A stretch of 64,000 nt of DNA from Clostridia bacterium (GTDB lineage: Bacteria; Bacillota; Clostridia; Christensenellales; Aristaeellaceae): NCBI GenBank assembly GCA_017464305.1, contig JAFUDS010000011.1:42702-106701 (forward strand). Reading direction: 5' to 3'. Shown here in pieces: positions 157 through 12,965 of the stretch (position 1 is its first letter; the number at the start of each line of letters is the position of its first letter). The position numbers were made by a program, and so were the translations under genes. The notes beneath the pieces were generated by a model. That model had not been told where the DNA came from, searched no databases, and saw nothing but the letters and a program-made list of their open reading frames with translations.

Positions 157-663
157 ATGAATCTTATACTTTCTGATCACAAAAATAAACAAGCTGCCAT
201 ATTTCAAGCTCAACAACTTCTGAAGCAAACCAAAGTCAAAATCGGCTTACCCTCCTCCGCCTCTGATCGCAATCGCTGGCTCCTGGCCTTACATGAGCGC
301 GGGGCCCCCGGGGCGCATATCCCTCCGCGCCCCGTAGTGGGCCCCGCCCTGGGCCAGAAAGCCACCCAGGCCGCCATCCAGCAGGGCCTGCTCCAAGCCT
401 GCGAAGCCGCGGCCCAGGGGGACGCCACAGCCGTGATGGACGGCTTCGACACCGCCGGTCAAGCCGGGGTGGAGAGCATCCACACCTACATCGACGCTGG
501 GATTGAGCCCAGCAATGCCCCCATTACCATCCACGGCGGCTGGATGCGGAATAATACCTCCGGAAAACCCGTCCATGTGGAAGGCAAGGGCTTTGACAAA
601 CCCCTATACGACACCGGCGAGCTCTACCAAGCCTTTGATTATGAAATTACCGCCTCCCACTGA
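157..663 (+). CDS. phage neck / virion morphogenesis-type protein
   Basis: A 168-residue protein at the start of the tail module. The segment around residues 28-70 (VKIGLPSS, then HERGAPGAHIPPRPVVGPAL) resembles the N-terminal part of HK97 gp10 or virion-morphogenesis proteins, where a short strand is followed by an IPxRPFxxPA-like motif. The C-terminal part (GGWMRN, then DTGELYQAFDYEI) fits the usual 'L.DTG.L..si.y.v' ending of that group. Such proteins join the head to the tail. The ribosome binding site before 157 is weak and the first 90 bases are much more AT-rich than the rest, so the true start or an N-terminal junction is uncertain. The assignment is by motif only. Confidence 0.6.
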   Translation: MNLILSDHKNKQAAIFQAQQLLKQTKVKIGLPSSASDRNRWLLALHERGAPGAHIPPRPVVGPALGQKATQAAIQQGLLQACEAAAQGDATAVMDGFDTAGQAGVESIHTYIDAGIEPSNAPITIHGGWMRNNTSGKPVHVEGKGFDKPLYDTGELYQAFDYEITASH

Positions 664-696
664 CCGCTTCAACATACATAGAAAGGAAAATATCTA

Positions 697-1053
697 TTGA
701 ATATTTGCGATCTGCTCACTGATCCTGACCTGGAAGGGACAGAATTCACCATCCTCCGCCGCACCTGGTCCGAGGCCGAGGACATTCCCCAATTGATCGC
801 CCTGGATACCCTCTACGCCTGCGGCATCCTTCACCCCGCCGACCCCACCCGGCTAGATCTGCTGCCGGAGGAAAGCCGCCATGAGCCCATCTTCCTGATC
901 CACTCCACAGAGCCCCTCTCCCTGGGGGAACGGGAGGGAGACACCTGGACCTCCCCGGACGAAATTCACTGGGGCGATCGGGTCTTCCGGGTGTTCCAGG
1001 TTCGTCCCTGGGAGGCCTATGGCTTCTGGAAGGGGTGGGCCGTCGAGATATGA
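697..1053 (+). CDS. hypothetical phage neck-region protein
   Basis: A 118-residue acidic protein with a TTG start at 697, preceded by GAAAGGAAAA at 681-690. It lies between the neck-type protein and a tail-terminator-like protein and overlaps the next gene by ATGA. It is rich in Trp and acidic residues and has no membrane segment. I do not recognise the family. The position suggests a head-tail joining or tail-completion role, which is inference from gene order. Confidence 0.65.
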   Translation: MNICDLLTDPDLEGTEFTILRRTWSEAEDIPQLIALDTLYACGILHPADPTRLDLLPEESRHEPIFLIHSTEPLSLGEREGDTWTSPDEIHWGDRVFRVFQVRPWEAYGFWKGWAVEI

Positions 1054-1583
1054 GCCTGCACGCCACCCTCCATGCCGCCCTGCGGGCCGCCCTCCAATCG
1101 GACCCTGCCAGCGGTATCCCCGCCCCCTTGATCCATCAGGCCTACACCAATCCTTCTCCTCCGCCCCCGCCGGAGACGCAGGATGTCCTGTATTACTTCC
1201 TGTCCCCAGAACCGGAAGCCCCCTGGCGGGAGGAAACCCTCGGCACGGACGGCCAGCCCCAGGTGTTCAGCTTTTCCGCCTGGCGCTTGGTGCTGGTTTT
1301 CTATGGACCCCATGCCGCTTCCCTGGCCTGGAGAGCCTATCACGCCCTGGCGCTGGATGGCCGGGGCAACCCTCGCCAATTGCTGCGATCAAGCAGCGTC
1401 TACATTCTGCCCCGGGCTGCCGTCCCCACCCTAACCTGGGAGCAATGGGAAACCCACCATCGCCCCCGGGCGGATTTGAGCCTGCCACTGCGCATCGCCC
1501 GGAACGATTCCTTCCCCTTGGATCAGGGCCAGGTGGACCAACTGCCGGGCATCCTGGAAGAACCCTCCATCATTTATCATTGA
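1050..1583 (+). CDS. tail terminator / neck protein (gp12-like)
   Basis: About 177 residues. The ATG at 1050 overlaps the TGA of the previous gene (ATGA), which favours it over the GTG at 1035. The order of elements (N-terminal helix, a Pro-rich linker PPPPPET, then strands QDVLYYFLSP and FSAWRLVLVFYGP with 'YHALAL') resembles the LIC_12616/gp12-like neck terminator domain found just before sheath genes in contractile phages. Such proteins cap the tail after polymerisation. Placement directly upstream of the sheath gene supports this. Family assignment is moderate. Confidence 0.6.
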   Translation: MSLHATLHAALRAALQSDPASGIPAPLIHQAYTNPSPPPPPETQDVLYYFLSPEPEAPWREETLGTDGQPQVFSFSAWRLVLVFYGPHAASLAWRAYHALALDGRGNPRQLLRSSSVYILPRAAVPTLTWEQWETHHRPRADLSLPLRIARNDSFPLDQGQVDQLPGILEEPSIIYH

Positions 1584-1594
1584 GGTGATTGTTC

Positions 1595-2701
1595 ATGCTG
1601 TCTTTTGATTCGATTGTGCAGGTGCGGGTGAATTCCGCAACGTTGCCCTCTTCGGGTAATTCATTCTCCACGGGGCTGATTCTCTGTCCCGGGGAAAGCC
1701 CTTATGAAGCCGGGGATGGGCCTCGACTCTTCGCCCGGCTGGAGGATATGATCTCCGCGGGCTTTGTGGAGTCCGACCCGGCTTATCTGGCCGCCGCGGC
1801 TTATTTCGCCGCTGATCCGGGGCCGGATCGGGTCTACGTGGCCTTCTATGCCCAGGGGGCCAGCCCGGCGGATGCCCTGCGACAGATTTTGAACAGCGAA
1901 ACCCATGATTTCTATGGCGTTTTCTGCTGCGAAACCACGCCAGCCCGCCTGGCCTCCCTGGCGGCGGATTTTTCCACCTTCGCTTCTCGCCAGATGCTCT
2001 TCCTGGCCTCTACTGCCCCCGTGACGGAGGGCATCGCCGCCGGCGGCCTCTTCCATGAGACCTATGAAAAGGGCTTCACTCGGGTGCTGGTGGTTCAGGG
2101 GGCGGATATCTACGCTGGGGCCGCCGTCATGGGCCTGGCCATGGGGCTCAGCCGACTGTATGGCCTGGACACCTTCGCCCTGTGTTATCGCCCTGTGGGG
2201 GGCATGGAGCCCCTGGCCCTTTCAGAATCGGACGTGGCCGCCATCAAGGCCCTCAATGGCAATGTGTATGTCCGCCGGGGCAACAATCTATCACTTTTTG
2301 AATACGGCTCCACCGCCTCCGGCGCTCGCTTTGATGAGGTCCTGACTCTGGACCGCATCTCTGCGGATCTGCAGTCCGCCGCCCTGTCCCTCCTGACCTC
2401 CGGCCAAGGAAAGTTGCCCCAGACGGATGAAACCTCCGCCGTGTTCATCAATCGGTTTTCTTCCGTCCTGGCGGGGTATACCGCCGCCGGCGCATTGGCC
2501 ACGGGAAAGTGGCGGGGAAACCCGGTGGGGGCTCTGCAGCCTGGGGATATCATCGAAGGGGGATATCGCCTTTGGGCAGATTCCTACGATCTGCAGTCCG
2601 ACGCGGATCGGGCCGCCCATAAGGCCATGCCCATCCATGTGGCCCTGTGCCTCTCCGGCAGCGTGGAAACCCTGCTGATCGATGTGGATGTGAGTTTGTA
2701 A
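1595..2701 (+). CDS. contractile tail sheath protein (DUF3383-like)
   Basis: About 368 residues. The start ATG 1595 follows TGAGGTGAT at 1581-1589; the TTG at 1589 lies inside the ribosome binding site. The N-terminus (IVQVRVN, then STGLILC) and the repeated fold 'ADPGPDRVYVAFY...DFYGVFCCE' match the DUF3383 family of short myovirus sheath proteins. The C-terminal domain (GGYRLWADSYDLQS... MPIHVALCLSGSVE) also fits. The sheath surrounds the tube and contracts on infection. It is followed by a tube gene, the canonical order. At 368 residues it is a minimal sheath. Confidence 0.85.
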   Translation: MLSFDSIVQVRVNSATLPSSGNSFSTGLILCPGESPYEAGDGPRLFARLEDMISAGFVESDPAYLAAAAYFAADPGPDRVYVAFYAQGASPADALRQILNSETHDFYGVFCCETTPARLASLAADFSTFASRQMLFLASTAPVTEGIAAGGLFHETYEKGFTRVLVVQGADIYAGAAVMGLAMGLSRLYGLDTFALCYRPVGGMEPLALSESDVAAIKALNGNVYVRRGNNLSLFEYGSTASGARFDEVLTLDRISADLQSAALSLLTSGQGKLPQTDETSAVFINRFSSVLAGYTAAGALATGKWRGNPVGALQPGDIIEGGYRLWADSYDLQSDADRAAHKAMPIHVALCLSGSVETLLIDVDVSL

Positions 2702-2802
2702 ATTATGAACGAATGCTTCCGGGGCTGGCGGGGCGCAGCCCCGCCCCTCTAAATATCCCCGTCCCCTTTTAGGGGAAGGGGTGTAGGGGAAGAGGTTCAA
2801 CG
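2702..2802. repeat. GC-rich intergenic palindromic repeat
   Basis: The gap between sheath and tube holds a strong GC stem (GCGGGGCGCAGCCCCGCC around 2731-2748) followed by a second imperfect hairpin of C and G runs (about 2757-2788). Related blocks occur at 17766-17850 and 19155-19179 in chromosomal intergenic DNA. It may modulate expression between sheath and tube. Similar composition in phage and host DNA suggests a genome-wide REP-like family. Confidence 0.6.
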
Positions 2803-2841
2803 ATGATTGAGCCTGACATGAAAGAAAGGATCCTCTGCCAT

Positions 2842-3276
2842 ATGTCCAAAACCACCGTTTACTCCCTGGCCGATGTCCGCACGGTCATGTACCATCAAGA
2901 CGTGGGCCAATGCGTCCTCTCCTCCCAGGGGGCCGGAAAGATTTCCATTACCTATTCCGGGGATATCTCCTCCCATACCGCCACCGCGGATGGTTATGTG
3001 GTGGTGAATCGCCTGCGGAATAATCACGGCATCGTTACCATTGAGGTGCCCCAGAATTCCTCTGCAGATGAGTATCTCCGCCGCTGGGCCAGATATTTGA
3101 AGAACGCCCAGTCCTATCTCTTTGCTCTCACAGCCCTGAACATCGTGGACCAGATGGGCGGCTTTACCATCTATTGTGAGGGCGTCACACCCCAGAAGAT
3201 TCCAGAAAGGGCCTATGACCTTACCTCCGGCAATGTCTCCTGGACGCTGTTAGTAGCAAATATTTCCGAAGGATAA
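2842..3276 (+). CDS. tail tube protein (DUF3277-like)
   Basis: About 144 residues. The start at ATG 2842 gives MSKTTVYSLADVRTVM, the typical beginning of DUF3277 tail tube or structural proteins ('..YSFLDV.A.I.HP.vG...L.G.G.G.I.I.Y..D'); ATGs at 2803 and 2818 lack that fit, and AAAGGA at 2825-2830 suits 2842. The protein would polymerise into the inner tube under the sheath. Its length and the GDISSHTATADG segment fit the family. The next gene overlaps its stop by TAATG. Confidence 0.8.
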   Translation: MSKTTVYSLADVRTVMYHQDVGQCVLSSQGAGKISITYSGDISSHTATADGYVVVNRLRNNHGIVTIEVPQNSSADEYLRRWARYLKNAQSYLFALTALNIVDQMGGFTIYCEGVTPQKIPERAYDLTSGNVSWTLLVANISEG

Positions 3277-3647
3277 TGATTGCCATGGAATATACCATTC
3301 TCCCTGTGGGCGCAGCCCCATACCAAACAATTACCCTCCCTGTTTCCCCAAACAATCATTCCTTCCTCTCTCGCTTGTCCCTCCGCTATCTCCCGGCTCC
3401 CGGCCGCTGGTTCCTGACCATTTCCGATGCCGTTTCCGGCGCGGTCTACGCAAACCATATTCCCCTGGTATGTTCCTATGGTGAGATCAATGACCTCCTG
3501 GCCCCTTTCGCTTATCTTTTCCAGGGTTCTGGCCTGGGCAGTCTCTTCGTCCTGAAGGCCGTAGAGGCTCCCAGCTCTCCGGACCCGGGAGAGAATAACC
3601 TCTCTGAATTCTACATCATCTGGGGGGACTCATGGAAAAATTCTTGA
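3276..3647 (+). CDS. baseplate plug protein (Pam3 gp18-like)
   Basis: A 123-residue protein. The pattern 'YTILPVGAAPYQTITL ... LSLRYLPAPGRWFLTISD ... IPLVCSYGEINDLLAPFAYLFQGSGLGSLFVL' follows the Pam3 gp18 plug family, in which a Trp-containing beta-strand and an IPLV motif recur. In cyanophage Pam3 this protein closes the baseplate centre. The start is either ATG 3276 (TAATG coupling to the tube gene) or ATG 3285; GAAGGA at 3267-3272 suits the latter better. The end overlaps the hub gene by 16 bases. Confidence 0.7.
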   Translation: MIAMEYTILPVGAAPYQTITLPVSPNNHSFLSRLSLRYLPAPGRWFLTISDAVSGAVYANHIPLVCSYGEINDLLAPFAYLFQGSGLGSLFVLKAVEAPSSPDPGENNLSEFYIIWGDSWKNS

Positions 3648-4402
3648 CCCGTGATCTGCGGCTTCTGGCCGATGGGGTGGAAATCGCCCAAGGTTGCCGG
3701 ATGTCTTTGCTCTCCCGCAGCCATCTGGGACTCCATCCCGCCCTGCGCCTGCTCTCTATCTTCCAGCTTTCGGATGCTTCGGTAGCTCTGCTGTCTGCTG
3801 CCCAGCATGTGGAGGTCTATTCCGGTGAATCCCTGCTATCCTTCGGGGAAATCATCGACGTTTATACCCGCTCCCTCTCTGGCCAACGGATTACCTCCCT
3901 GACCTTCTCCCCAGGCTTTTCCCTGTGGCAGGCCTCCGTCTCCCTGTCCCTTCGGGCGGGGATGAAGGCTTCGGATACCTTCCGGGCCCTGCTGGCGGCC
4001 TCCGGGGCTTCCGTCTCCCTTGCCTCCTTCGGCGCGGAAGATGTGGTTTTCTCCCGGCCACAGGCCTTCTTCGGCCGCGCTTTCCAGTCCCTGGATGCGC
4101 TGGCCGAGGCCTGCGGGGGAGATGCCTTCCTTTCTTCCGCCGGGATCTGTGTGGTCTCCCGGGTGCCTACCGCTACCAATGCTTGGGAGGTGATCCCGCC
4201 CCAGGACTTGCTGGCCTCGCCTCAGCCCGCCGGGGAGCGCCTGATTCTCACTCTGCCCCTGCGGGATTGGTCTCCCGGCAATCTTCTCCAGGTCTCCTTC
4301 CAGGGCCAAACCTGGCAGGGGAGGGTCCAATCCTCCCTGCTGCAGGCGGATAACGCCTCTGGCCCCTGGAAGGCAGAGGTGGAGCTGAGTCTTGTTCATT
4401 GA
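3632..4402 (+). CDS. baseplate hub protein
   Basis: A 256-residue protein with start ATG 3632 behind GGGGGG, overlapping the plug gene. It has beta-rich halves, including HVEVYSGESLLSFGEIIDVYT near residues 68-88 and NLLQVSFQGQTWQGRVQSSLLQ near 222-243, arranged like the gpD/gp44-type hub proteins that connect tube and spike. Neighbouring plug, spike and gp25 genes support this role. It is shorter than P2 gpD or Mu gp44, in keeping with the small size of every protein in this module. Assignment rests mainly on order. Confidence 0.6.
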   Translation: MEKFLTRDLRLLADGVEIAQGCRMSLLSRSHLGLHPALRLLSIFQLSDASVALLSAAQHVEVYSGESLLSFGEIIDVYTRSLSGQRITSLTFSPGFSLWQASVSLSLRAGMKASDTFRALLAASGASVSLASFGAEDVVFSRPQAFFGRAFQSLDALAEACGGDAFLSSAGICVVSRVPTATNAWEVIPPQDLLASPQPAGERLILTLPLRDWSPGNLLQVSFQGQTWQGRVQSSLLQADNASGPWKAEVELSLVH

Positions 4403-4467
4403 ACATCACCCGCATCTCTGCCCCCTTCTTACCGTTTTTGCTTCTCGTATCTGAAAGGAAATCTCTC

Positions 4468-4863
4468 ATGCAACTTTCCGAATCCTTCCTGCAAGATGTG
4501 GCCGCCGAAGTGGAGCGGAATATCCTTTCCCGGCTCCATGTAATGATGCCCGGCCGCATTGCCTCCTACGACCCTTCCACGGGCTTGGCGGATATCCAAC
4601 CCGCCTTGATGAGGCATTCCTGTGCCGGGGCCTTTCTGCCTGCGCCGCTTTTGCTGGATGTACCTGTGTTCCGCCCTGCCGTAGATTTCTCCCTCTCTCC
4701 AGGTGACCCTTGCCTCGTCCTCTTTGCGGATTTCTGCCTGGAAGGCGTCTGGCCAGGGCTGCAGCCTGTGGTTCCTCTCTCGCCCCGGGCTCACGACCTT
4801 TCCGACGCTATCGCCCTGGCGGGGTTCTTCGGGCCTGCGCCAGAAGAAAAACTGTTCCTGTAG
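4468..4863 (+). CDS. baseplate spike protein (Gp138 N-terminal-like)
   Basis: About 131 residues. The start at ATG 4468 is supported by GAAAGGAAA at 4453-4461; a longer reading from 4399 has no such site. The motif MMPGRIASYDPSTGLADIQP is the hallmark of the Gp138 N-terminal (OB-fold) domain of phage spike proteins ('..pG.I.sYd...q.a.VqP'). The protein would sit at the tip of the tube. There is no long C-terminal needle repeat, so this is a short spike. Confidence 0.75.
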   Translation: MQLSESFLQDVAAEVERNILSRLHVMMPGRIASYDPSTGLADIQPALMRHSCAGAFLPAPLLLDVPVFRPAVDFSLSPGDPCLVLFADFCLEGVWPGLQPVVPLSPRAHDLSDAIALAGFFGPAPEEKLFL

Positions 4864-4878
4864 GAGGTGAAGCCCTTC

Positions 4879-5241
4879 ATGCTTTCCCGCCCTGTGGACG
4901 CCTCGGGGGATATTCTTCCCGTGCTGGCTCTTTCCGATCTGGCTACGGAACCCACCGCCACTGCCTCTGCTCTTCGGGATCACCTTTCTCTTTTCCCTGG
5001 GGATTGGTGGGAGTATCCCTCCCGGGGAAATCAGGTGGTGTCCCTCCTGCCAGAGGCCCGGGCTACACCCGCCTCCGCTGCCACCCTGGCGGCTTATCTG
5101 TCGGCTTATATTGAGTCTTTCCCCTCCGTTGCTTCTGTCTCTGTGGTCTCTACGGAGTTTTCTGGAAGGCAGTTCATCTATACGGCGGAAGTTCATCTTT
5201 CATCTGGTGAATCCGAAGTTATCCATTTTGCTTTCCCTTGA
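4879..5241 (+). CDS. baseplate wedge protein, gp25-like
   Basis: About 120 residues. The start ATG 4879 lies 8 bases behind AGGAGGTGA (4862-4870). The N-terminal half contains LFPGDWWEYPSRGN, comparable to the 'GE..ldp..Gv.w' region of gp25/W-like lysozyme-fold wedge proteins, and the C-terminal half is a single strand-rich domain (SVASVSVVSTEFSGRQFIYT). It lies directly before the J-like gene, the usual gp25-J order. Known role: initiates sheath assembly at the baseplate. Confidence 0.7.
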   Translation: MLSRPVDASGDILPVLALSDLATEPTATASALRDHLSLFPGDWWEYPSRGNQVVSLLPEARATPASAATLAAYLSAYIESFPSVASVSVVSTEFSGRQFIYTAEVHLSSGESEVIHFAFP

Positions 5242-5300
5242 AGCCCTTCCTGCCTTCCGTCCTCAGTCCGTCCACTTCCTTTTGTTTGAGGTAATTGCCT

Positions 5301-6473
5301 ATGTACTTCGCCCCTTACATCGCCACCGATGGCGTTCATCTTCCGACCTATCAGGATCGGTTGGATGGGCTGCTTGCTTCCTACCGCTCTATCTTTGGCT
5401 CGGAGGTGAATCTGGAAATCTCCTCCCCGGATTATCAGCTGCTGTCCCTCTTTGCCCGGTCTCTGGACGATCTGTCCCAATTGGTGCTGTACGATTTCGT
5501 CTCCCGGAATCCGGCCTATGCCTCCGGGGAGGCTCTGGATCTGTTGTTGCCCCTCCATGGGCTCTGCCGGCAGGGGGCTACCTATTCCTCCGTGGTTCTT
5601 ACCCTCTCCGGCATGCCAGGGGCTGTGCTTTCCTCCGCACCCCAGGTCATGGATGACGCGGGATACATCTGGTCCTGTCCTTCCGCCGGGATTTCCTTGA
5701 ATGAATCCGGCACTGCCACGGTAGAGGCCTTCTGCCAAACCCCGGGGGCCATCTCTGCCGCCGTGGGGGCGGTTCATCGGCTGGTATCCCCAGTCTCCGG
5801 CCTGGCTTCCGCCATCAATCTGGTGGCAGCTACCCCGGGGAGGGAAGCAGAGTCCGACGCCTCCTGCCGCCATCGGCTCTCCCTGGCCGCAGCTCTGCCT
5901 TCGTTGTCCACCTTAGATTCGCTGCGATCCGCGGTGCTTTCCGTACCAGGGGTTACTTCCTGCGCGATCTATGAGAATTCTACGGATACGACTGACGAAA
6001 ATGGTATTCCTTCTCATTCCCTCTGCGTCGTGGTATCCGGGGGACTGACCACGGACCTGGCCCCAGTTATCTTTTCCCGGAAAGCTCCTGGTATCGGTAC
6101 CTACGGCGCCCTCTCCGCGGAGGTCACAGACGCCTTCGGTGTTTCCCATACCGTCCGCTTCCAGCGGGCTACCATGACCGCTGTGGCCCTATCCTTGGAA
6201 TTAACCCACCTCTCCAGCTTTGAGGAATCCGTCGTCGAAAAGGTCCGTGCTGTCCTGGTTTCCTATGCTGACAATCTGGGCATCGGACAGGACCTAGTGG
6301 TTCCGTCCCTCTATGCCCTGGTCTATGAGGCCGCCGGAGTTTCCCCGCCTACCTTCTCTATTTCTCTCCTGACGGCCACTTCCGGTGGCCAGTCCACCGG
6401 AGGCATCCTCTCCGCCGCTTGGAATCAGCGCTTCACCATCCCCGCCAACATGATTCAGATCCTGGTTAAGTAG
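5301..6473 (+). CDS. baseplate J-like protein (wedge)
   Basis: About 390 residues. The start ATG 5301 follows TTGAGGTAA (5286-5294). Segments typical of baseplate J/gp47 proteins are visible: 'RLDGLLASYRSIFGSEVNL', 'SGEALDLLLPLHGLCRQGAT', 'GREAESDASCRHRLSLA', and 'VPGVTSCAIYENSTD' followed by 'HSLCVVVSGG'. J proteins form the baseplate wedge with gp25 and gpI. Length is normal for the family. Its position upstream of the chaperone and tape-measure genes is unusual (see findings). Confidence 0.85.
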   Translation: MYFAPYIATDGVHLPTYQDRLDGLLASYRSIFGSEVNLEISSPDYQLLSLFARSLDDLSQLVLYDFVSRNPAYASGEALDLLLPLHGLCRQGATYSSVVLTLSGMPGAVLSSAPQVMDDAGYIWSCPSAGISLNESGTATVEAFCQTPGAISAAVGAVHRLVSPVSGLASAINLVAATPGREAESDASCRHRLSLAAALPSLSTLDSLRSAVLSVPGVTSCAIYENSTDTTDENGIPSHSLCVVVSGGLTTDLAPVIFSRKAPGIGTYGALSAEVTDAFGVSHTVRFQRATMTAVALSLELTHLSSFEESVVEKVRAVLVSYADNLGIGQDLVVPSLYALVYEAAGVSPPTFSISLLTATSGGQSTGGILSAAWNQRFTIPANMIQILVK

Positions 6474-6489
6474 AAAGGAATAATAACCA

Positions 6490-6849
6490 ATGCGAACAAT
6501 TTCTAAAACCCTCACTCTCCCCCTGGCGGGCGAACCCCAGGAATTCCGCCTCACGAAGCTGGACGCCTTCTCCGGCGTCCGGCTGCTGAAGTTGCTCTCC
6601 CACGCGGAGACGGACAACCTGCAGGACCTGCTGCTCTCCCTGCCAGAATACGAGCTAGAGCCCCTGATGAAAACCTGCCTCCGCGCCGTCTCCGCCCTGC
6701 TTCCCGCCGGGCCGATCCGGGTCTACGGCGACGAGGGCTGGGGCCTGCCGGATCTGGAATATGACGCCTGGTCCTGCCTGAAGCTGACCCTGGAGGTGAT
6801 CCAGTGGACCCTGGAAGGTTTTTTCGGCGAAAGCGGCTCGGCTTCCTGA
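6490..6849 (+). CDS. tail assembly chaperone, short form (G-like)
   Basis: A 119-residue protein, start ATG 6490 behind AGAAAGGAATAATAACC. Its position just before the tape measure, the small acidic composition (FRLTKLDAFSGVRLLKLL, LEPLMKTCLRAVSALLP) and the overlapping downstream frame mark it as the upstream half of a tail assembly chaperone pair (lambda G/GT or P2 E/E+E' logic). The 0-frame ends GESGSAS-stop at 6849. Translation is expected to shift frame at 6819-6825 to make the longer product. Confidence 0.75.
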   Translation: MRTISKTLTLPLAGEPQEFRLTKLDAFSGVRLLKLLSHAETDNLQDLLLSLPEYELEPLMKTCLRAVSALLPAGPIRVYGDEGWGLPDLEYDAWSCLKLTLEVIQWTLEGFFGESGSAS

Positions 6850-7043
6850 CGCCTGCCGCGCCCTATTTGCCCGCCGAAGCCCCCAATATCGACGAACTGG
6901 CCTTCCTGCCTGTGGCTGCTGGTTTCTGGCGGCAGCATGAACTTTGGGATGGCACCTATACCCTGGATGATCTGCTGGATATCGTGGAGATGATCCAGCT
7001 CTCCCGGGAGAACGAACGCCGCGCCAGGGAGGTGATGGTTTAA
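6490..7043 (+). CDS. tail assembly chaperone, -1 frameshift product (GT-like)
   Basis: Predicted fusion of about 184 residues: 112 residues in frame 0 up to the TTC at 6823-6825, then 72 residues in the -1 frame, starting RRKRLGFLTPAAPY and ending EVMV at 7043. The T TTT TTC heptamer at 6819-6825 is in the correct phase for tandem slippage. The downstream part has no convincing start or ribosome binding site, and its C-terminal pattern (W...Y.LDDLLDIVEMIQLSREN..RA) is that of T-domain chaperones. Its stop overlaps the tape-measure start (TAATG). The downstream frame must be expressed somehow, and the shift is the simplest way. Confidence 0.75.
6819..6825 (+). promoter_or_regulatory. -1 ribosomal frameshift slippery site
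   Basis: The heptamer T TTT TTC, read in frame 0 as GGT TTT TTC, allows both tRNAs to re-pair after slipping back one base. It lies 24 bases before the 0-frame stop in the overlap of the two chaperone frames. Conserved frameshifting at this place is established for tailed phages. Confidence 0.75.
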
Positions 7044-8281
7044 TGGCTCTACAGGAATTCTTAGCCTCTTACGCCGTCCAGGTGGACGAGGACGGGGCTC
7101 GCCGGCTGCAGCGGATTCTGGACCAGAATCGCCTTTCCGCCCGGGAGCTTTCCTCTGCCTTCTCCGCCGCTTATTCCTCCCTGGTGGCCCTGAAGAAGGA
7201 GCTTTCCGACGCCTCCGGGCTCAAGAATGTGCTCTCCGCCCTTTCTGCCAGCGCCGCCGCCAGCTCTCGCTTGCCGGCTTCGCTGGCCGCAGGGGGAGCC
7301 TCCGGCTCCGCCGGAGCTGCGTCTCTGGCCTCTTCTGCGTCTCTTTCTGGCGGAAAGTCCGTTCTCTCCGTTTCTGCTGACCTAACTTCTGCCGAAGAAG
7401 CCCTGGCTTCCTTCCGGGCAAAGATCGAGGCGGAAAGACCCCGCTTGTCCGTCAATCCTTCCGGCATTACCGCCGCTGTGTCGTCAGCCATCGCCCAGAT
7501 TCGATCCATAATGGCTTCCGTCCGGATTACGGTGCCCGTGACGGCGAAGGCTTCCCTGGATACTTCGTCTTTGAAGACTTCCGTTTCCGTCGGTGGCTCT
7601 TCTGGGTCGGGTTCTGGTACCTCCGCCGCCACCTCCTCTGGATCTGGATCTAGCTCCTCCCTGGTTTCGTCTGGTTCTATGATCAAGCTGGGTGTCGGCG
7701 GCCGGGTAGCTTCTCCTACTTTGGCCTTGATTGCCGAGGAGGGCGCTCCGGAATACGTTATCCCGACGGATAACGATTCTCGGGCTGTGCCTCTGTTGCG
7801 GTCTCTGCTTCAGGAGCTGTCGTCTTCTGCCAAGCGGGCTATTATGTCTGGGTTGCAGGGTGAAAAAGATGATGCTGTCAGATCGGCGCTCTCACTGCCG
7901 TATGCTTCTTTTTCTTCGACTTCTCCATCAAAGGGGGCTCTGCCTTCCTCTGTTCCGATCTTTTCTCTCCCGTCGATCCCTTCCGATGATTCTCCTTCTC
8001 TTCCTGCTTCCGGCCTTTCTGGCTTTACCGACCTTTCTGGTCTATTTGCTCTCCCGGATACCCTTTTCTCCCTCCGTTCTGCCTTTTCCGATCTTACCTC
8101 CGCCGCCCGGAGCGCTATGCTGCCGGCGTCCAGCGCTGCGGCCCCCGCTGCTCCCTCCGTCCAGGCCCCGGTAAATATCCATGTCACCACCAATGGCTCC
8201 CAACCGGAAGCCCTGGCTCAATCCATCTATGATGTGACGCAGCGTTCCCTGCTGAAAACCTTGCGTGGTGTGTTTGTTTGA
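7043..8281 (+). CDS. short tape measure protein
   Basis: A 412-residue Ser/Ala/Gly-rich protein with start ATG 7043 overlapping the chaperone stop. The N-terminal 60 residues form amphipathic helix (EDGARRLQRILDQNRLSARELSSAF). A low-complexity Ser-Gly stretch lies near 195-215. The segment GGRVASPTLALIAEEGAPEYVIP followed by LLRSLLQEL (about 221-260) is the C-terminal signature common in tape measure proteins. It sets tail length and passes through the tube. At 412 residues the tail would be short. No peptidase or clear transmembrane segment was seen. Confidence 0.75.
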   Translation: MALQEFLASYAVQVDEDGARRLQRILDQNRLSARELSSAFSAAYSSLVALKKELSDASGLKNVLSALSASAAASSRLPASLAAGGASGSAGAASLASSASLSGGKSVLSVSADLTSAEEALASFRAKIEAERPRLSVNPSGITAAVSSAIAQIRSIMASVRITVPVTAKASLDTSSLKTSVSVGGSSGSGSGTSAATSSGSGSSSSLVSSGSMIKLGVGGRVASPTLALIAEEGAPEYVIPTDNDSRAVPLLRSLLQELSSSAKRAIMSGLQGEKDDAVRSALSLPYASFSSTSPSKGALPSSVPIFSLPSIPSDDSPSLPASGLSGFTDLSGLFALPDTLFSLRSAFSDLTSAARSAMLPASSAAAPAAPSVQAPVNIHVTTNGSQPEALAQSIYDVTQRSLLKTLRGVFV

Positions 8282-8295
8282 AAGGAGATTTTACC

Positions 8296-8829
8296 TTGAA
8301 TACCTCTACCGCCTACATCCTGGTGAAGGTCCTGGGATATCGCTATACCTTCGATGGCGTGGTTTCCGTCTCTCACAATCTGTCCCTGAAAATCTCTACT
8401 GATTCCGACGCCGAGGAGGGAGCGGATTATGTCAACAACGCTCGGAATGAGCCGGATGTGGTGACGCTTTCCGTTGTGGCCTCGGATAGCCATGTGCCCG
8501 TGGCAGGCTGGGCCCGGCAGACGTTATCTTCCCTTTGCCAGATCAAGGAGCTGCGGCTGCTATGCCAGGTTTTTACCGGTCTCCGGATGTACGACAACAT
8601 GCTGCTTTCGGATATCTCCGTCCAACAGGATGAATCCTGCCCGGAAGGTTGGGTGGGAACCTTGACCTTTACCCAGGCGGATTCAGCCTCTTCTGCCGAA
8701 CCAGTGAATGATTATTCCTCCACAGCCACCTATTCCAGCTCCGTTTCCGCTCGATCGGTTGGCTCCTCCGTTTCTGGAGGCGGTTCCGTACTGCAAACCA
8801 TTCTGCGGGAGGCCGGGATTGTTGGGTGA
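8296..8829 (+). CDS. Dit-like baseplate/distal tail protein
   Basis: About 177 residues. The start is TTG 8296, 8 bases after AAAGGAG at 8281-8287; the TTG at 8278 lies in the previous gene's stop region. The sequence (YRYTFDGVVSVSHNLSLKIS, then EEGADYVNNARNEPDVVTLSVVASD) matches the N-terminal domain of Dit-like baseplate proteins, with the 'V.EGA.v.DH....p..V.l.G.vs.' logic. These link tape measure, tube end and baseplate. The C-terminus is Ser-rich. A repeat element begins one base after the stop codon. Confidence 0.7.
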   Translation: MNTSTAYILVKVLGYRYTFDGVVSVSHNLSLKISTDSDAEEGADYVNNARNEPDVVTLSVVASDSHVPVAGWARQTLSSLCQIKELRLLCQVFTGLRMYDNMLLSDISVQQDESCPEGWVGTLTFTQADSASSAEPVNDYSSTATYSSSVSARSVGSSVSGGGSVLQTILREAGIVG

Positions 8830-9000
8830 ACCTCTGGCGACCGCCAGTGGCGAAAATTTCACCAGAGGTGAACTCAACCGAAAGGGAGCAATCTCCACGG
8901 TGGGGAGTCCTTCCGCGCGCGGTGCGCGAGGACCGTGACTACGGTCCCGCGGTGCGTGTGCGCTTCCATACGACCATTGAGGTTGCGGATGCCCCCTTGA
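8830..9000. repeat. intergenic mosaic repeat, copy 1 (stem-loop with constant core)
   Basis: A stem-loop at 8830-8869 has arms ACCTCTGG/CCAGAGGT around a core CGACCGCCAGTGGCGAAAATTT. It is followed by AACTCAACCGAAAGGGAGCA and the hairpin CTCCACGGTGGGGAG. The same series occurs on the opposite strand at 28075-28174 in chromosomal DNA, where a block of about 60 bases (8915-8975, itself with GC inverted repeats) is absent. The element begins immediately after the Dit-like gene's stop. Confidence 0.8.
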
Positions 9001-9034
9001 GTAATTTCGACGTTTGTAGAAAGGAACAAACACT

Positions 9035-9490
9035 TTGTACACCTTAGAATCCTACCTCTCCCTCTTTCCCCCTTCCAGCCGCCAGAAACCCCGCTTTCTG
9101 GCCCTGGCCTCCGCTGTCCTGGGCCAGGCTACAGACCTGCTGCGGCTGGTGCAGGTGGATTTCCCCGCCGCCTGGAACCTGGAAACTTCCTCCGGCGCTG
9201 CCCTGGATGCCTTGGGGGCGCTGCTGAATGTGCCCCGTCCGGCTTCGGATACCTCAGACGAGGATTACCGTCTGCTGCTGCGGGCCCGGGTCTTCGCCCA
9301 CCACTGGGACGGTACCAACGGCTCCCTGCCAGCCCTGCTGGCGGCGGCCCTGCCGGGACAGAACATCCAGCTGTTGGATAACCAGGATGGCACCGTCACG
9401 GCAGTAGCTCCTACCGATCTCCCTTTTCCCCTGCGGGATCTGATCCCTCTGCCTGCGGGGGTACGGCTGATAGAAACTCCCTCCGCTTGA
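9035..9490 (+). CDS. tail protein, gpI / DUF2612-like
   Basis: A 151-residue protein with TTG start at 9035 behind AGAAAGGAACAA (9018-9029). The motif 'DFPAAWNLETSSGAALDALGALLNVPR' and 'TSDEDYRLLLRARV' is characteristic of DUF2612 or gpI-type baseplate proteins, where 'G..LD.lG..lgv.R....d..YR..l...i' recurs. These complete the baseplate wedge with J and often anchor tail fibres. No tail fibre gene follows; the next gene is a peptidase. The repeat element upstream separates it from the rest of the module. Confidence 0.75.
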   Translation: MYTLESYLSLFPPSSRQKPRFLALASAVLGQATDLLRLVQVDFPAAWNLETSSGAALDALGALLNVPRPASDTSDEDYRLLLRARVFAHHWDGTNGSLPALLAAALPGQNIQLLDNQDGTVTAVAPTDLPFPLRDLIPLPAGVRLIETPSA

Positions 9491-10242: not shown

Positions 10243-12885
10243 CTACTTCTTCCCCTGGCCGCCCTTTTCCAGAGCCGCCTGCAGCGCCGCGGCCACGGCG
10301 GAGGTTTCCTTGGGGTGCAAATTATTCTTCTCCAATATGGCGTCGATAGCCACCTGGGTTTGCTCCACCTCCCGGCGGAATTCCCGGGCGGAGACCCGGG
10401 TAGCCCCGCCGCCCAGGATGATCACCTGCTCCAGGCCGTCGGAGGTGGCCACCCGGACGCGGCTATCCTTCTTCCGGGCGATTTCCCGAATGGTTTTCTC
10501 GATGTAATTATCCGCCGTCTCCGCCTCTTTGGTATAGACGATATGGATGCCCTGGAACTCTTCCTGGGCGCCCTGGCCCCCCTGAACCTTATAGGCGTCG
10601 AACACCAGGATCAGCTCGCATTCATGGAAGCCCCGGAAATTGCTGAGGATATCGATGAGGCTCCGGCGGGCGTCCTCCAGGCTGTGGCGGGCCAGGGCCT
10701 GGAGATCCGGCCAGGCGAAGATGATGTTATACCCATCCACCAGCAGATACTCCTTCTTCGGGGGGGCCAATTCCAGGGCCTCCCCGTTTACTGTAGGCCG
10801 ATGCACCCGAGGCTCCTCCGCTCCCCGAAGCTTGGGCTTGCCATAGGTCCGCTGGAAAATGGCCTCCAGCTCCTGATCCTCCGCCAGGGTGCCCCGATAA
10901 GCCGCCCGAACTCCGCCCCCGGTCCTTTCGGAGCCTCCGGAGGTCGTCCCCGGCCGGGAGGCCCCAGTCTCCGGGTGCAGATGCATATAGTTTTCCACCT
11001 GATCCCAGGGCACCACAAAGCCGGCCCCATGGGCGCAGAACACGGAATCCGGCGTGTTTTCCACATCCCGCTCCGGGTCATAGCCCCGGCGGCGGATAAC
11101 CTCCTCCGCATTCCGGCAGGGGGCGTAGCCCCGCAGGGCGCAGGTCAGCCGACCCTGGCCCCGGGTGTAGGACACCACCTCCCGGGCATAGCCCCGCAGA
11201 GCTGCCACCGGGGCGCTGCCCTCCAGCAGAGTGTGCCCCTCCCGCAGCTCCGGCGGCTTTAGCTCCGCCCCCATCTGGCTCAGATCGTTCATGGCCCGGC
11301 CCACGCAGTCCCCGGGCAGCTCCAGCCGTAAATCATACCAGGGCTCAAGCAGCACGCTCTCCGCCCGCATGAGCCCCTGGCGCACGGCCCGATAGGTGGC
11401 CTGGCGGAAATCCCCGCCCTCCGTGTGCTTCAAATGGGCCCGACCGGCCATGAGGGTGATTTTCATATCCGTAATGGGGGATCCCGTCAGGACGCCCCGA
11501 TGGGTCTTTTCCATCAGATGGGTCAGGATCAGCCGCTGCCAGTTCAGCTCCAGATCATCCGTGGAACAGGCGGAGGCAAACTTTAGCCCGCTGCCAGGCT
11601 CCCCAGGCTCCAGCAGCAGATGCACCTCCGCGTAATGGCGCAGGGGCTCATAATGCCCCACCCCCTCCGCCGGGGCGGCGATGGTTTCCCGATACAGGAT
11701 GCCCCCTTCGCCGAAGGCAGCCTCCAGGCCGAACCGGTCCCGCAGCAGGCGGCGCAGAATTTCCAGCTGCACCTCCCCCATCAGCTGCACATGAATCTCC
11801 CGCTTCTCCGGGCTCCAGACCACCTGCAGCTGGGGATCCTCCTCCTCCAGAATCCGCAGGTGCTTCAGCGCCTGGGACAGATCCGCCCCCGGGGGCAAGA
11901 GCACCTGATAGGTAAACACCGGCGTCAGCAGGGGACTTTCCCCGCCCCGCTCCCGGCCCAGCCCATCCCCGACCCGGGAGGTGCTGAGGCCCGTCACGGC
12001 GCAAACCTCCCCGGCGGCGGCCTCCTCCGTCAGGCGGAATTTCGCCCCGCTGTACAGCCGAATCTGGTTGATCTTCTCCTCCCCATCCCCCTGGGGGATC
12101 AGGGTCTTGACCCGCAGGGCGCCGCCGGTGATCTTCAGCCAGGTGAGCCGGGCGCCCTGGGGATCATGACTGATTTTATACACCCGGGCACCAAACTCCG
12201 GCGGATAAGCCGGGCGGGGCGACAGGGAAACCACGCCGTCCAGCAGGGTCTCCACCCCCTTCATCCGCAGGGCGCTGCCAAAATAGCAGGGAAAAAGCCC
12301 CCGAGCCCCCACCGCCCGGGACAGCATCTCCGGCGGGATGGACCCCTCGTTCAGGAAGGCCTCCATCCCCTCCTCGGAGCACAGGGCCGCCTCCTCCATG
12401 GCCCCGGGGGTGGACAGATCCACGCAGCCATCCCCCAGGCGGTTCTTCAGCTCCCGCAGGAGGGCGGCCTTGTCCGTGCCGGGCTGATCCATTTTATTGA
12501 CAAAGAGAAAAGTAGGAATCCGGTAGGCCTTCAGCAGCCGCCAGAGGGTCTCCGTGTGCCCCTGGACGCCGTCCGCCCCGCTGATGACCAGAATCGCCGC
12601 GTCCAGCACGCTGAGAGTCCGCTCCATCTCGCTGGAAAAATCCACATGCCCCGGGGTATCCATCAGGGTCAGGGGCACACCCTTCCAAACCAGCTCCGCC
12701 TGCTTGGAAAAGATGGTGATGCCCCGCTCCCGCTCCTGGACATCCGTGTCCAGAAAGGCGTCCCCATGGTCCACCCGGCCCAGCTTTCGCAGCTGGCCGG
12801 CGGCAAAGAGCAGGGCCTCGGACAGGGTGGTTTTCCCTGCGTCCACATGGGCCAGCAGCCCGATGATCAGTCTTTTCTCCGCCAC
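10243..12885 (-). CDS. TetM-like translation GTPase fused to Rae1/YacP (NYN-PIN) ribonuclease
   Basis: An 880-residue protein with GTG start at 12885 behind GGAGGGAGC. The N-terminal 650 residues form an EF-G/TetM-type GTPase: G1 AHVDAGKT (12-19), switch RGIT (54-57), DTPGH (76-80), NKMD (130-133), then domains II-V. After a Gly/Ser-rich linker, the last 170 residues (from EYLLVDGYNIIFAWPDLQAL) match YacP/Rae1, including DAYKVQGG, TKEAETADNYIEK and VATSDGLEQ. Rae1 of Bacillus subtilis is known to cut mRNA in the ribosomal A site. The fusion suggests a GTPase that brings a nuclease to the ribosome. Tetracycline protection alone would not explain the nuclease. The GTPase and nuclease assignments are strong; the joint role is inferred. 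Confidence 0.9.
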   Translation of the reverse strand: MAEKRLIIGLLAHVDAGKTTLSEALLFAAGQLRKLGRVDHGDAFLDTDVQERERGITIFSKQAELVWKGVPLTLMDTPGHVDFSSEMERTLSVLDAAILVISGADGVQGHTETLWRLLKAYRIPTFLFVNKMDQPGTDKAALLRELKNRLGDGCVDLSTPGAMEEAALCSEEGMEAFLNEGSIPPEMLSRAVGARGLFPCYFGSALRMKGVETLLDGVVSLSPRPAYPPEFGARVYKISHDPQGARLTWLKITGGALRVKTLIPQGDGEEKINQIRLYSGAKFRLTEEAAAGEVCAVTGLSTSRVGDGLGRERGGESPLLTPVFTYQVLLPPGADLSQALKHLRILEEEDPQLQVVWSPEKREIHVQLMGEVQLEILRRLLRDRFGLEAAFGEGGILYRETIAAPAEGVGHYEPLRHYAEVHLLLEPGEPGSGLKFASACSTDDLELNWQRLILTHLMEKTHRGVLTGSPITDMKITLMAGRAHLKHTEGGDFRQATYRAVRQGLMRAESVLLEPWYDLRLELPGDCVGRAMNDLSQMGAELKPPELREGHTLLEGSAPVAALRGYAREVVSYTRGQGRLTCALRGYAPCRNAEEVIRRRGYDPERDVENTPDSVFCAHGAGFVVPWDQVENYMHLHPETGASRPGTTSGGSERTGGGVRAAYRGTLAEDQELEAIFQRTYGKPKLRGAEEPRVHRPTVNGEALELAPPKKEYLLVDGYNIIFAWPDLQALARHSLEDARRSLIDILSNFRGFHECELILVFDAYKVQGGQGAQEEFQGIHIVYTKEAETADNYIEKTIREIARKKDSRVRVATSDGLEQVIILGGGATRVSAREFRREVEQTQVAIDAILEKNNLHPKETSAVAAALQAALEKGGQGKK

Positions 12886-12965
12886 GGCGCTCCCTCCGTT
12901 TTGCGATAATGCCTCCGCCCTCCGGGGGCGGAAGTTTGATTGGATCCACTATATCAAAAAAACAG

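Follow-up and report, generated by a model that had tools for sequence, protein, structure and literature searches.

A Rae1-type nuclease fused to a distinct EF-G/Tet-type GTPase and its apparent replacement of standalone Rae1 in Clostridia

According to a 2025 review (PMC12320835), Rae1 (YacP) can attack mRNA at the A site of the ribosome, and its gene is described as cotranscribed with yacO, the rlmB homologue (PMC6613710). The domain IV loops of Tet proteins dislodge tetracycline, as stated in Atkinson 2015 (PMC4342817). The same paper reports ten Clostridiales species whose Tet proteins carry a YacP-like NYN domain and suggests a role in antibiotic resistance, the function being untested there. 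In this study, a protein of this kind was analyzed, encoded by one gene in a 64,000-nt stretch (the window) of contig JAFUDS010000011.1 from Clostridia bacterium GCA_017464305.1, in which an EF-G-type GTPase is joined to a Rae1/YacP nuclease domain. The Atkinson 2015 proteins have the same architecture and very probably belong to the same family. The architecture is therefore not new. Our literature search for the fusion found it described only in Atkinson 2015; Leroy 2017 and Condon 2018 lay outside that search and may mention it. The available sections of Atkinson 2015 do not connect these proteins with Rae1, with a loss of the older rae1 gene in favor of the fusion or with a GTPase subfamily of their own. 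Sequence comparison adds what that record had missed: in a large part of Clostridia the fusion behaves as the Rae1, and its GTPase, acquired in a single joining, belongs to a translational subfamily other than the tetracycline-protection proteins.

The gene and its parts, all on the minus strand, are as follows.

10243..12885, minus strand: whole coding sequence including the stop codon, 880 residues, GTG start at 12885 (ORF translation, Pfam)
12892..12897, minus strand: GGAGGG, resembling a ribosome-binding site, ending 6 bases upstream of the GTG (sequence reading)
12217..12873, minus strand: GTPase (G) domain with intact G motifs, residues 5-223 (PF00009 GTP_EFTU, E 2.1e-50; motifs invariant in 31 aligned proteins)
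11959..12195, minus strand: domain II, residues 231-309 (PF22042 EF-G_D2)
11710..11922, minus strand: domain III, residues 322-392 (PF14492 EFG_III)
11362..11700, minus strand: domain IV, residues 396-508 (PF03764 EFG_IV)
11404..11445, minus strand: tip loop of domain IV, residues 481-494, GRAHLKHTEGGDFR (alignments to TetO and Thermus thermophilus EF-G, conservation in relatives)
11110..11355, minus strand: domain V, residues 511-592 (PF00679 EFG_C)
10981..11082, minus strand: C-terminal tail conserved in the GTPase subfamily, residues 602-635, SVFCAHGAGFVVPWDQV..YM (family alignments)
10762..10965, minus strand: tether, residues 641-708, a short helix at 666-681 between two low-confidence stretches (AlphaFold2 model)
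10309..10746, minus strand: Rae1/YacP NYN nuclease domain, residues 714-859 (PF05991, E 1.3e-49; 5mq8, E 9.5e-26)

The plus strand across 10243..12885 is interrupted by stops. All six Pfam domains of the 880-residue protein scored above their gathering cut-offs, EF-G_D2 only narrowly (27.3 bits vs 27). The GTPase motifs AHVDAGKTT, RGIT, DTPGH and NKMD were all present. The initial annotation had placed here a single 880-residue protein with all G motifs intact, joining an EF-G-type GTPase to a complete YacP/Rae1 domain; this description and its coordinates were right, and the minus strand is now added.

The NYN_YacP profile matched residues 714-859 with 168.9 bits (cut-off 24.6) over positions 1-146 of 166. 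The last 169 residues matched both B. subtilis YacP/Rae1 crystal structures, 5mq8 and 5mq9 (E 1.1e-25 for the latter), over about 140 residues with the same acidic motifs, and these two were the only PDB sequences matched at E 0.01. The putative nuclease residues D717, N720, D763, D792 and D816, which we take to be catalytic, were invariant in the 31 fused proteins aligned first. In a larger alignment of 142 rows, in which a few genomes occur twice, D717 and N720 were conserved in 140/140 filled rows, D763 in 139/139, D792 in 138/138 and D816 in 137/139, the exceptions being two loci (L164 and L179; G and L numbers are our handles for genomes and loci). Both a missing YacP/NYN-PIN match and lost acidic residues, named at the outset as evidence against a nuclease, were looked for, and neither was found. 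In one divergent fused member (L087 4409-6932, genome G198) the P-loop is altered to ASADTGKTT, and the nuclease carries VDAYN in place of VDGYN.

The distribution of the two forms was surveyed in Clostridia, where PF05991 matched in 250 of 393 genomes, the window's own genome included. Among the 249 other matching genomes, 223 were scored by frame length (fused, at least 600 aa; standalone, less than 260 aa), 25 lay outside the scoring and one (G261) held a sub-cutoff fragment. The scored genomes comprised 118 fused, 99 standalone and 6 unassigned cases (313-501 aa), and 80 genomes were re-examined. The related fusions anticipated for other Clostridia are thus common, and since the two parts share a single frame in 118 of 223 individually scored genomes, the fusion is not an accident of assembly. 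The fused form occurred in 71 genera and the standalone form in 77; two genera held both, in different species. The Rae1 domain was nearly always single-copy per genome, fused or standalone. Both forms occurred intact together in G284 only, the extra matches in G120, G174, G208 and G370 being weak or fragmentary. About 33 genomes with both forms would be expected under independence among 360 genomes classed as fused, standalone or without a match, and the mutual exclusion had a Fisher p of ~1e-19, not corrected for relatedness.

Within the window's own genus, the domain was present in 34 of 37 genomes, several of them incomplete assemblies, mostly in frames of ~880-1090 aa; two first-rank matches sat in shorter frames (383 and 662 aa). 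In a phylum sample of 299 genomes, the GTPase tail was found at E 1e-35 or better in 21, of which 15 were outside Clostridia; 18 of the 21 matches lay in frames of at least 857 aa and three in frames of 651-657 aa. Searching GTDB genomes gave at least 599 matching stretches, 598 of them relatives. Among the best 80 of these, 78 were fused, one (L160) had its halves in different frames and one (L129) was cut by a contig end. By record organism, 73 of these 80 belonged to Clostridia, with Oscillospiraceae (33) and Lachnospiraceae (14) as the largest families. Common gut genera among the named relatives included Faecalibacterium, Blautia, Oscillibacter and Flavonifractor, and Agathobacter rectalis was also found.

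The Rae1 of B. subtilis is a separate ~170-aa protein encoded in the order cysS-mrnC-rlmB-rae1-sigH, whereas in the fusion it is the tail of a GTPase and the gene neighbors are not conserved. In standalone Clostridia loci, rae1 lay between RlmB and SigH in six of seven cases, once with one extra frame (L094); the seventh was L095 of G209. RlmB was then located in 30 fused genomes and 1.5 kb was inspected on either side. Both rlmB and sigH were visible in 13 of the 30, and an intact rae1 was missing between them in all 13; the other 17 had no SigH nearby and were uninformative. In 12 of the 13, the aligned parts of RlmB and SigH were only 9-284 bp apart (179 bp in the window's own genome), while a rae1 gene requires ~510 bp. 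The fusion gene had no mrnC, rlmB or sigH neighbors, and its own genome's rlmB-sigH slot was empty. In G370, a 743-bp rlmB-sigH gap held a broken rae1 with one stop and a large loss (L208 2235-2979), beside an intact fusion elsewhere. The slots of G139 (E 0.5) and G299 (E 0.06) showed weak rae1-like traces, which we did not score as relics. The absence of an intact rae1 from the slot in 13/13 fused genomes where it could be seen is direct evidence of a takeover by the fusion with loss of the older gene, and comparison of these loci makes it very probable that the fusion replaced standalone Rae1.

Both halves point to a single joining event. In a quick tree of 61 GTPases, with SH-aLRT support only, the 34 fused GTPases formed one clade (SH-aLRT 100) within the unfused subfamily, adjoining the unfused L113. 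Eleven loci were left out of this tree by the frame filter (L084, L087, L104, L112, L114, L120, L122, L124, L160, L247 and L251). The fused domains likewise formed one clade (97/94), nested in standalone Rae1, in a tree built from 69 nuclease domains with its root placed on Bacillus and Paenibacillus. From this second tree L087 was left out, as were L002, L011, L013, L019, L023, L027, L028 and L030, second copies from genomes it already contained, and L089, a wrong frame (true motif VDGCN) with a branch length of 8, was ignored in the reading. The only standalone row inside the fused nuclease clade was L095 of G209. Lying in that clade and outside the canonical rlmB-sigH slot, the L095 nuclease probably split off from a fusion; the GTPase of the same genome, L242, fell in the unfused branch of the GTPase tree. 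By both trees, then, the fusion arose once. Anatomy, conservation, single origin and replacement can all be read from these sequence comparisons.

The GTPase shares with Tet(M)/Tet(O) the five-domain EF-G-type architecture, aligned with TetO and TetM over nearly its full length, and has in common with EF-G all five Pfam domains and a His at the position of EF-G His573. In the NCBIfam comparison, which covered the cut-offs of the best 25 of 37 families, it nevertheless missed those of both groups. The scores were 389.3 bits on the general Tet model NF012153 (775 required), 259.5 on the TetM/W/O/S model NF033148 (1100 required), 305.4 on OtrA (900), 249.5 on TetQ (1425) and 221 on TetM (1420). 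The EF-G model TIGR00484 gave 298.6 bits, with 659.4 required. Three relatives, namely the unfused Ligilactobacillus salivarius protein and those of Monoglobus and Agathobacter rectalis, scored 381-397 bits on the general Tet model.

The tip of domain IV also set this GTPase apart. The fusion has AHLKHTEGGDF at the position of the Tet-type tip SPxSTPADF, and SPASTPADF occupies that position in two sampled proteins of the tetracycline-protection type. K486 aligned with TetO Pro509, which contacts the drug site, and H484 aligned with T. thermophilus EF-G His573, which matters in translocation (both positions counted from the alignment). A His occupied the latter position in 141 of 142 rows. The tip H484-x-K486-H487-T488-x-G490-G491-D492-F493-R494 was invariant in the 31 fused proteins, except that K486 was only nearly so, with Lys or Gln at this position. 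These 31 were selected by their nuclease motif, not by the tip loop. The rows of the 142-row alignment were chosen by the pattern TxGGDF and the 80 GTDB loci by HT[EQD]GGDFR or the tail pattern, so counts for those letters are biased in both sets, and the 31 nuclease-picked rows are free of this bias. D76 and H80 of the GTPase were conserved in 112/112 rows. Scores and alignments thus place the GTPase in a separate EF-G/Tet-type subfamily with its own domain IV tip and conserved tail, distinct from TetM. The initial label "TetM-like" holds for the fold and fails for the family. Tetracycline protection is not supported, since the drug-removing tip is replaced by a different conserved one and all the curated Tet cut-offs compared are missed by a wide margin; as the best reading it was rejected on these two grounds.

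Unfused members of the subfamily were sought with a profile of the domain IV tip plus tail, counting matches above 200 bits. Excluding the more divergent match in G376, unfused GTPases were found in 18 of 79 genomes with standalone Rae1 only. The unfused proteins scored 215-276 bits, mostly in frames of 620-730 aa, and those inspected had the same tip and ended at the conserved tail or a few residues beyond. The next match, in G376, reached only 130 bits; it bears the related loop LEHTHGGDFR and was taken as a divergent relative of the subfamily. The tail was present in 80/80 fused genomes tested, with one strong match each (186-367 bits). A separate unfused copy was found in none of these 80 sampled genomes, the next-best among the matches listed reaching at most 81 bits, in the EF-G range. 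The further, lower-scoring matches of ~700 aa in fused genomes were in the size and score range of EF-G, and one of them (L241) was confirmed as EF-G by its tip.

An AlphaFold2 model of the fusion built from the 31-sequence alignment had a mean pLDDT of 79.5 and a pTM of 0.62. The pLDDT was below 50 at residues 641-669 and 684-708, on either side of the helix at 666-681, and these two stretches are probably disordered. The region from M634 to L714 varied from 69 to 135 residues, with a median of 80 (110 rows). The Foldseek matches in the PDB, among the 50 listed, were EF-G, EF-2 and relatives.

EF-G-type domain IV and Rae1 would both need the decoding center and cannot be there together. As the center cannot hold both at once, we infer a hand-over via the tether, and a long flexible tether of the predicted kind fits such a step. 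Ribosome binding, GTP gating, hand-over and A-site cleavage would then proceed as follows. The GTPase in its GTP form would bind at the factor site when a ribosome has paused and its A site is open, and its own conserved domain IV tip would enter the decoding center as a probe. After GTP hydrolysis the GTPase would withdraw, and the tethered nuclease would move into the A site thus freed and cleave the codon in it. The cut would end translation of that mRNA, with the A site left empty so that rescue can follow. The GTPase would thus provide ribosome binding, the choice of ribosome state and the timing, and the NYN domain the cleavage. Joint action of both halves at the A site is the most economical reading of the sequences. 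To this extent the initially proposed machine, entering stalled or drug-bound ribosomes and cutting the mRNA, is retained, with its tentative tetracycline protection dropped. For the full mechanism, in which the cell's Rae1 would have been rebuilt into an A-site nuclease guided by a GTPase, we put the chances at about even. Somewhat more tentatively, the subfamily may serve as a dedicated nuclease escort in a large share of Clostridia, with GTP hydrolysis selecting the stalled ribosome and timing the A-site hand-over. We know of no bacterial rescue system that resembles such a GTP-gated, mRNA-cutting quality-control factor.

Several points weigh against this guided-nuclease mechanism. Mutual exclusion and the loss of the old gene indicate replacement, not delivery of the nuclease by the GTPase. 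No need for such a GTPase is known for B. subtilis Rae1, and delivery is therefore not strictly required. Of 80 genomes lacking any YacP match, 6 held an unfused GTPase, so the GTPase probably has a function independent of Rae1. The G209 nuclease appears to have separated from its fusion again, and the two halves therefore need not be linked in every case. The two factors compared between 40 fused and 40 standalone genomes showed no broader change in how stalls are handled. MutS2 (TIGR01069) was above cut-off in 79 of these 80, the miss (G379) being fused, and PF05670, presumably the domain carried by RqcH, was present in 79, the miss (G086) being standalone. The candidate role of the fusion as a substitute for other stall factors was rejected, as MutS2 and PF05670 gave no contrast between the groups.

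Some of these points suit a different explanation, namely that the GTPase has its own ribosome job, such as translocation, recycling or EF-G-type stall release, and that Rae1 is merely carried or co-localized, the halves acting separately through the long tether. The GTPase can live alone, as its unfused occurrences in 18/79 standalone-only and 6/80 YacP-less genomes indicate; the linker is of low confidence and variable length, and the standalone nuclease of G209 groups with the fused ones. Such loose association sits poorly with a fusion found across 71 genera of the class sample, with 0/80 sampled fused genomes holding a separate unfused GTPase and with the strong constraint on both halves, and we regard it as unlikely, though worth keeping in mind. 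It is distinctly less probable that the nuclease acts on a neighboring ribosome, or on rRNA/tRNA, for example in collided ribosomes, and not on the A-site codon of the bound ribosome. The tether might reach an adjacent ribosome, and an early proposal for the NYN domain, cited in PMC4342817, was rRNA/tRNA maturation. B. subtilis Rae1, the closest studied relative, is however described as an A-site mRNA nuclease, and with the collision factor MutS2 above cut-off in 79/80 genomes the fusion is no stand-in for MutS2.

Resistance to tetracycline or another A-site antibiotic, with the RNase as an addition, was the suggestion of Atkinson 2015 and of the initial annotation. The fold class is common to Tet proteins, and plasmid records label one fused and one unfused member "TetM/TetW/TetO/TetS family tetracycline resistance ribosomal protection protein". 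The tip is however unlike that of TetO and of the two Tet-type proteins in the sample, with Lys at the Pro509 position, and the fusion falls far below the general Tet (389 bits vs 775) and TetM/W/O/S (259 vs 1100) cut-offs, its three relatives likewise. It behaves as a single-copy gene replacing a chromosomal housekeeping gene, and only two of 1286 matching plasmid records have a place covering at least 80% of it. We therefore consider resistance very improbable.

Among the 15 plasmid records listed, two held the fusion and the others matched only the GTPase part. The members labeled as tetracycline resistance were the unfused one on a Ligilactobacillus salivarius plasmid (L251 3998-5917) and the fused one in Agathobacter rectalis (L253 2989-5790), both at about half of the curated cut-off; the Monoglobus record reads "translation factor GTPase family protein". 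The L. salivarius gene lies near rpsN (S14) and metalloregulator genes (L251 1862-5917), and a link to ribosome remodeling is possible. The plasmid matches listed for the NYN domain only were mostly standalone proteins. A standalone NYN/Rae1-like protein also occurs in twelve plasmid records of Clostridioides difficile (97-150 kb, H18-H29). A 129-kb B. subtilis "plasmid" record (L249, NZ_AP028965.1 42549-46926) contains cysS-mrnC-rlmB-rae1-sigH-rpmG-secE-nusG, which is normally chromosomal. The two best matches in the phage collection (L254, MT835563.1, and L255, MT835514.1) are unverified "Bacteriophage sp." records in which the whole fusion stands among long frames that look bacterial by eye, and both may be bacterial DNA. 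In the window itself, prophage late genes for neck, tail sheath, baseplate hub and wedge, tape measure and tail fiber occupy 157-9490 on the plus strand and stop just beside the fusion gene. Across the neighborhoods of 34 fused loci, the only other family in at least four loci reached four (L064, L065, L077 and L082) and gave no clue to function.

Members mislabeled as tetracycline resistance despite their tip and scores could inflate resistance gene counts in gut data. Since the relatives include common gut genera, the fusion may be the main form of Rae1 in those bacteria, and it makes testable how Rae1 finds the right ribosome.

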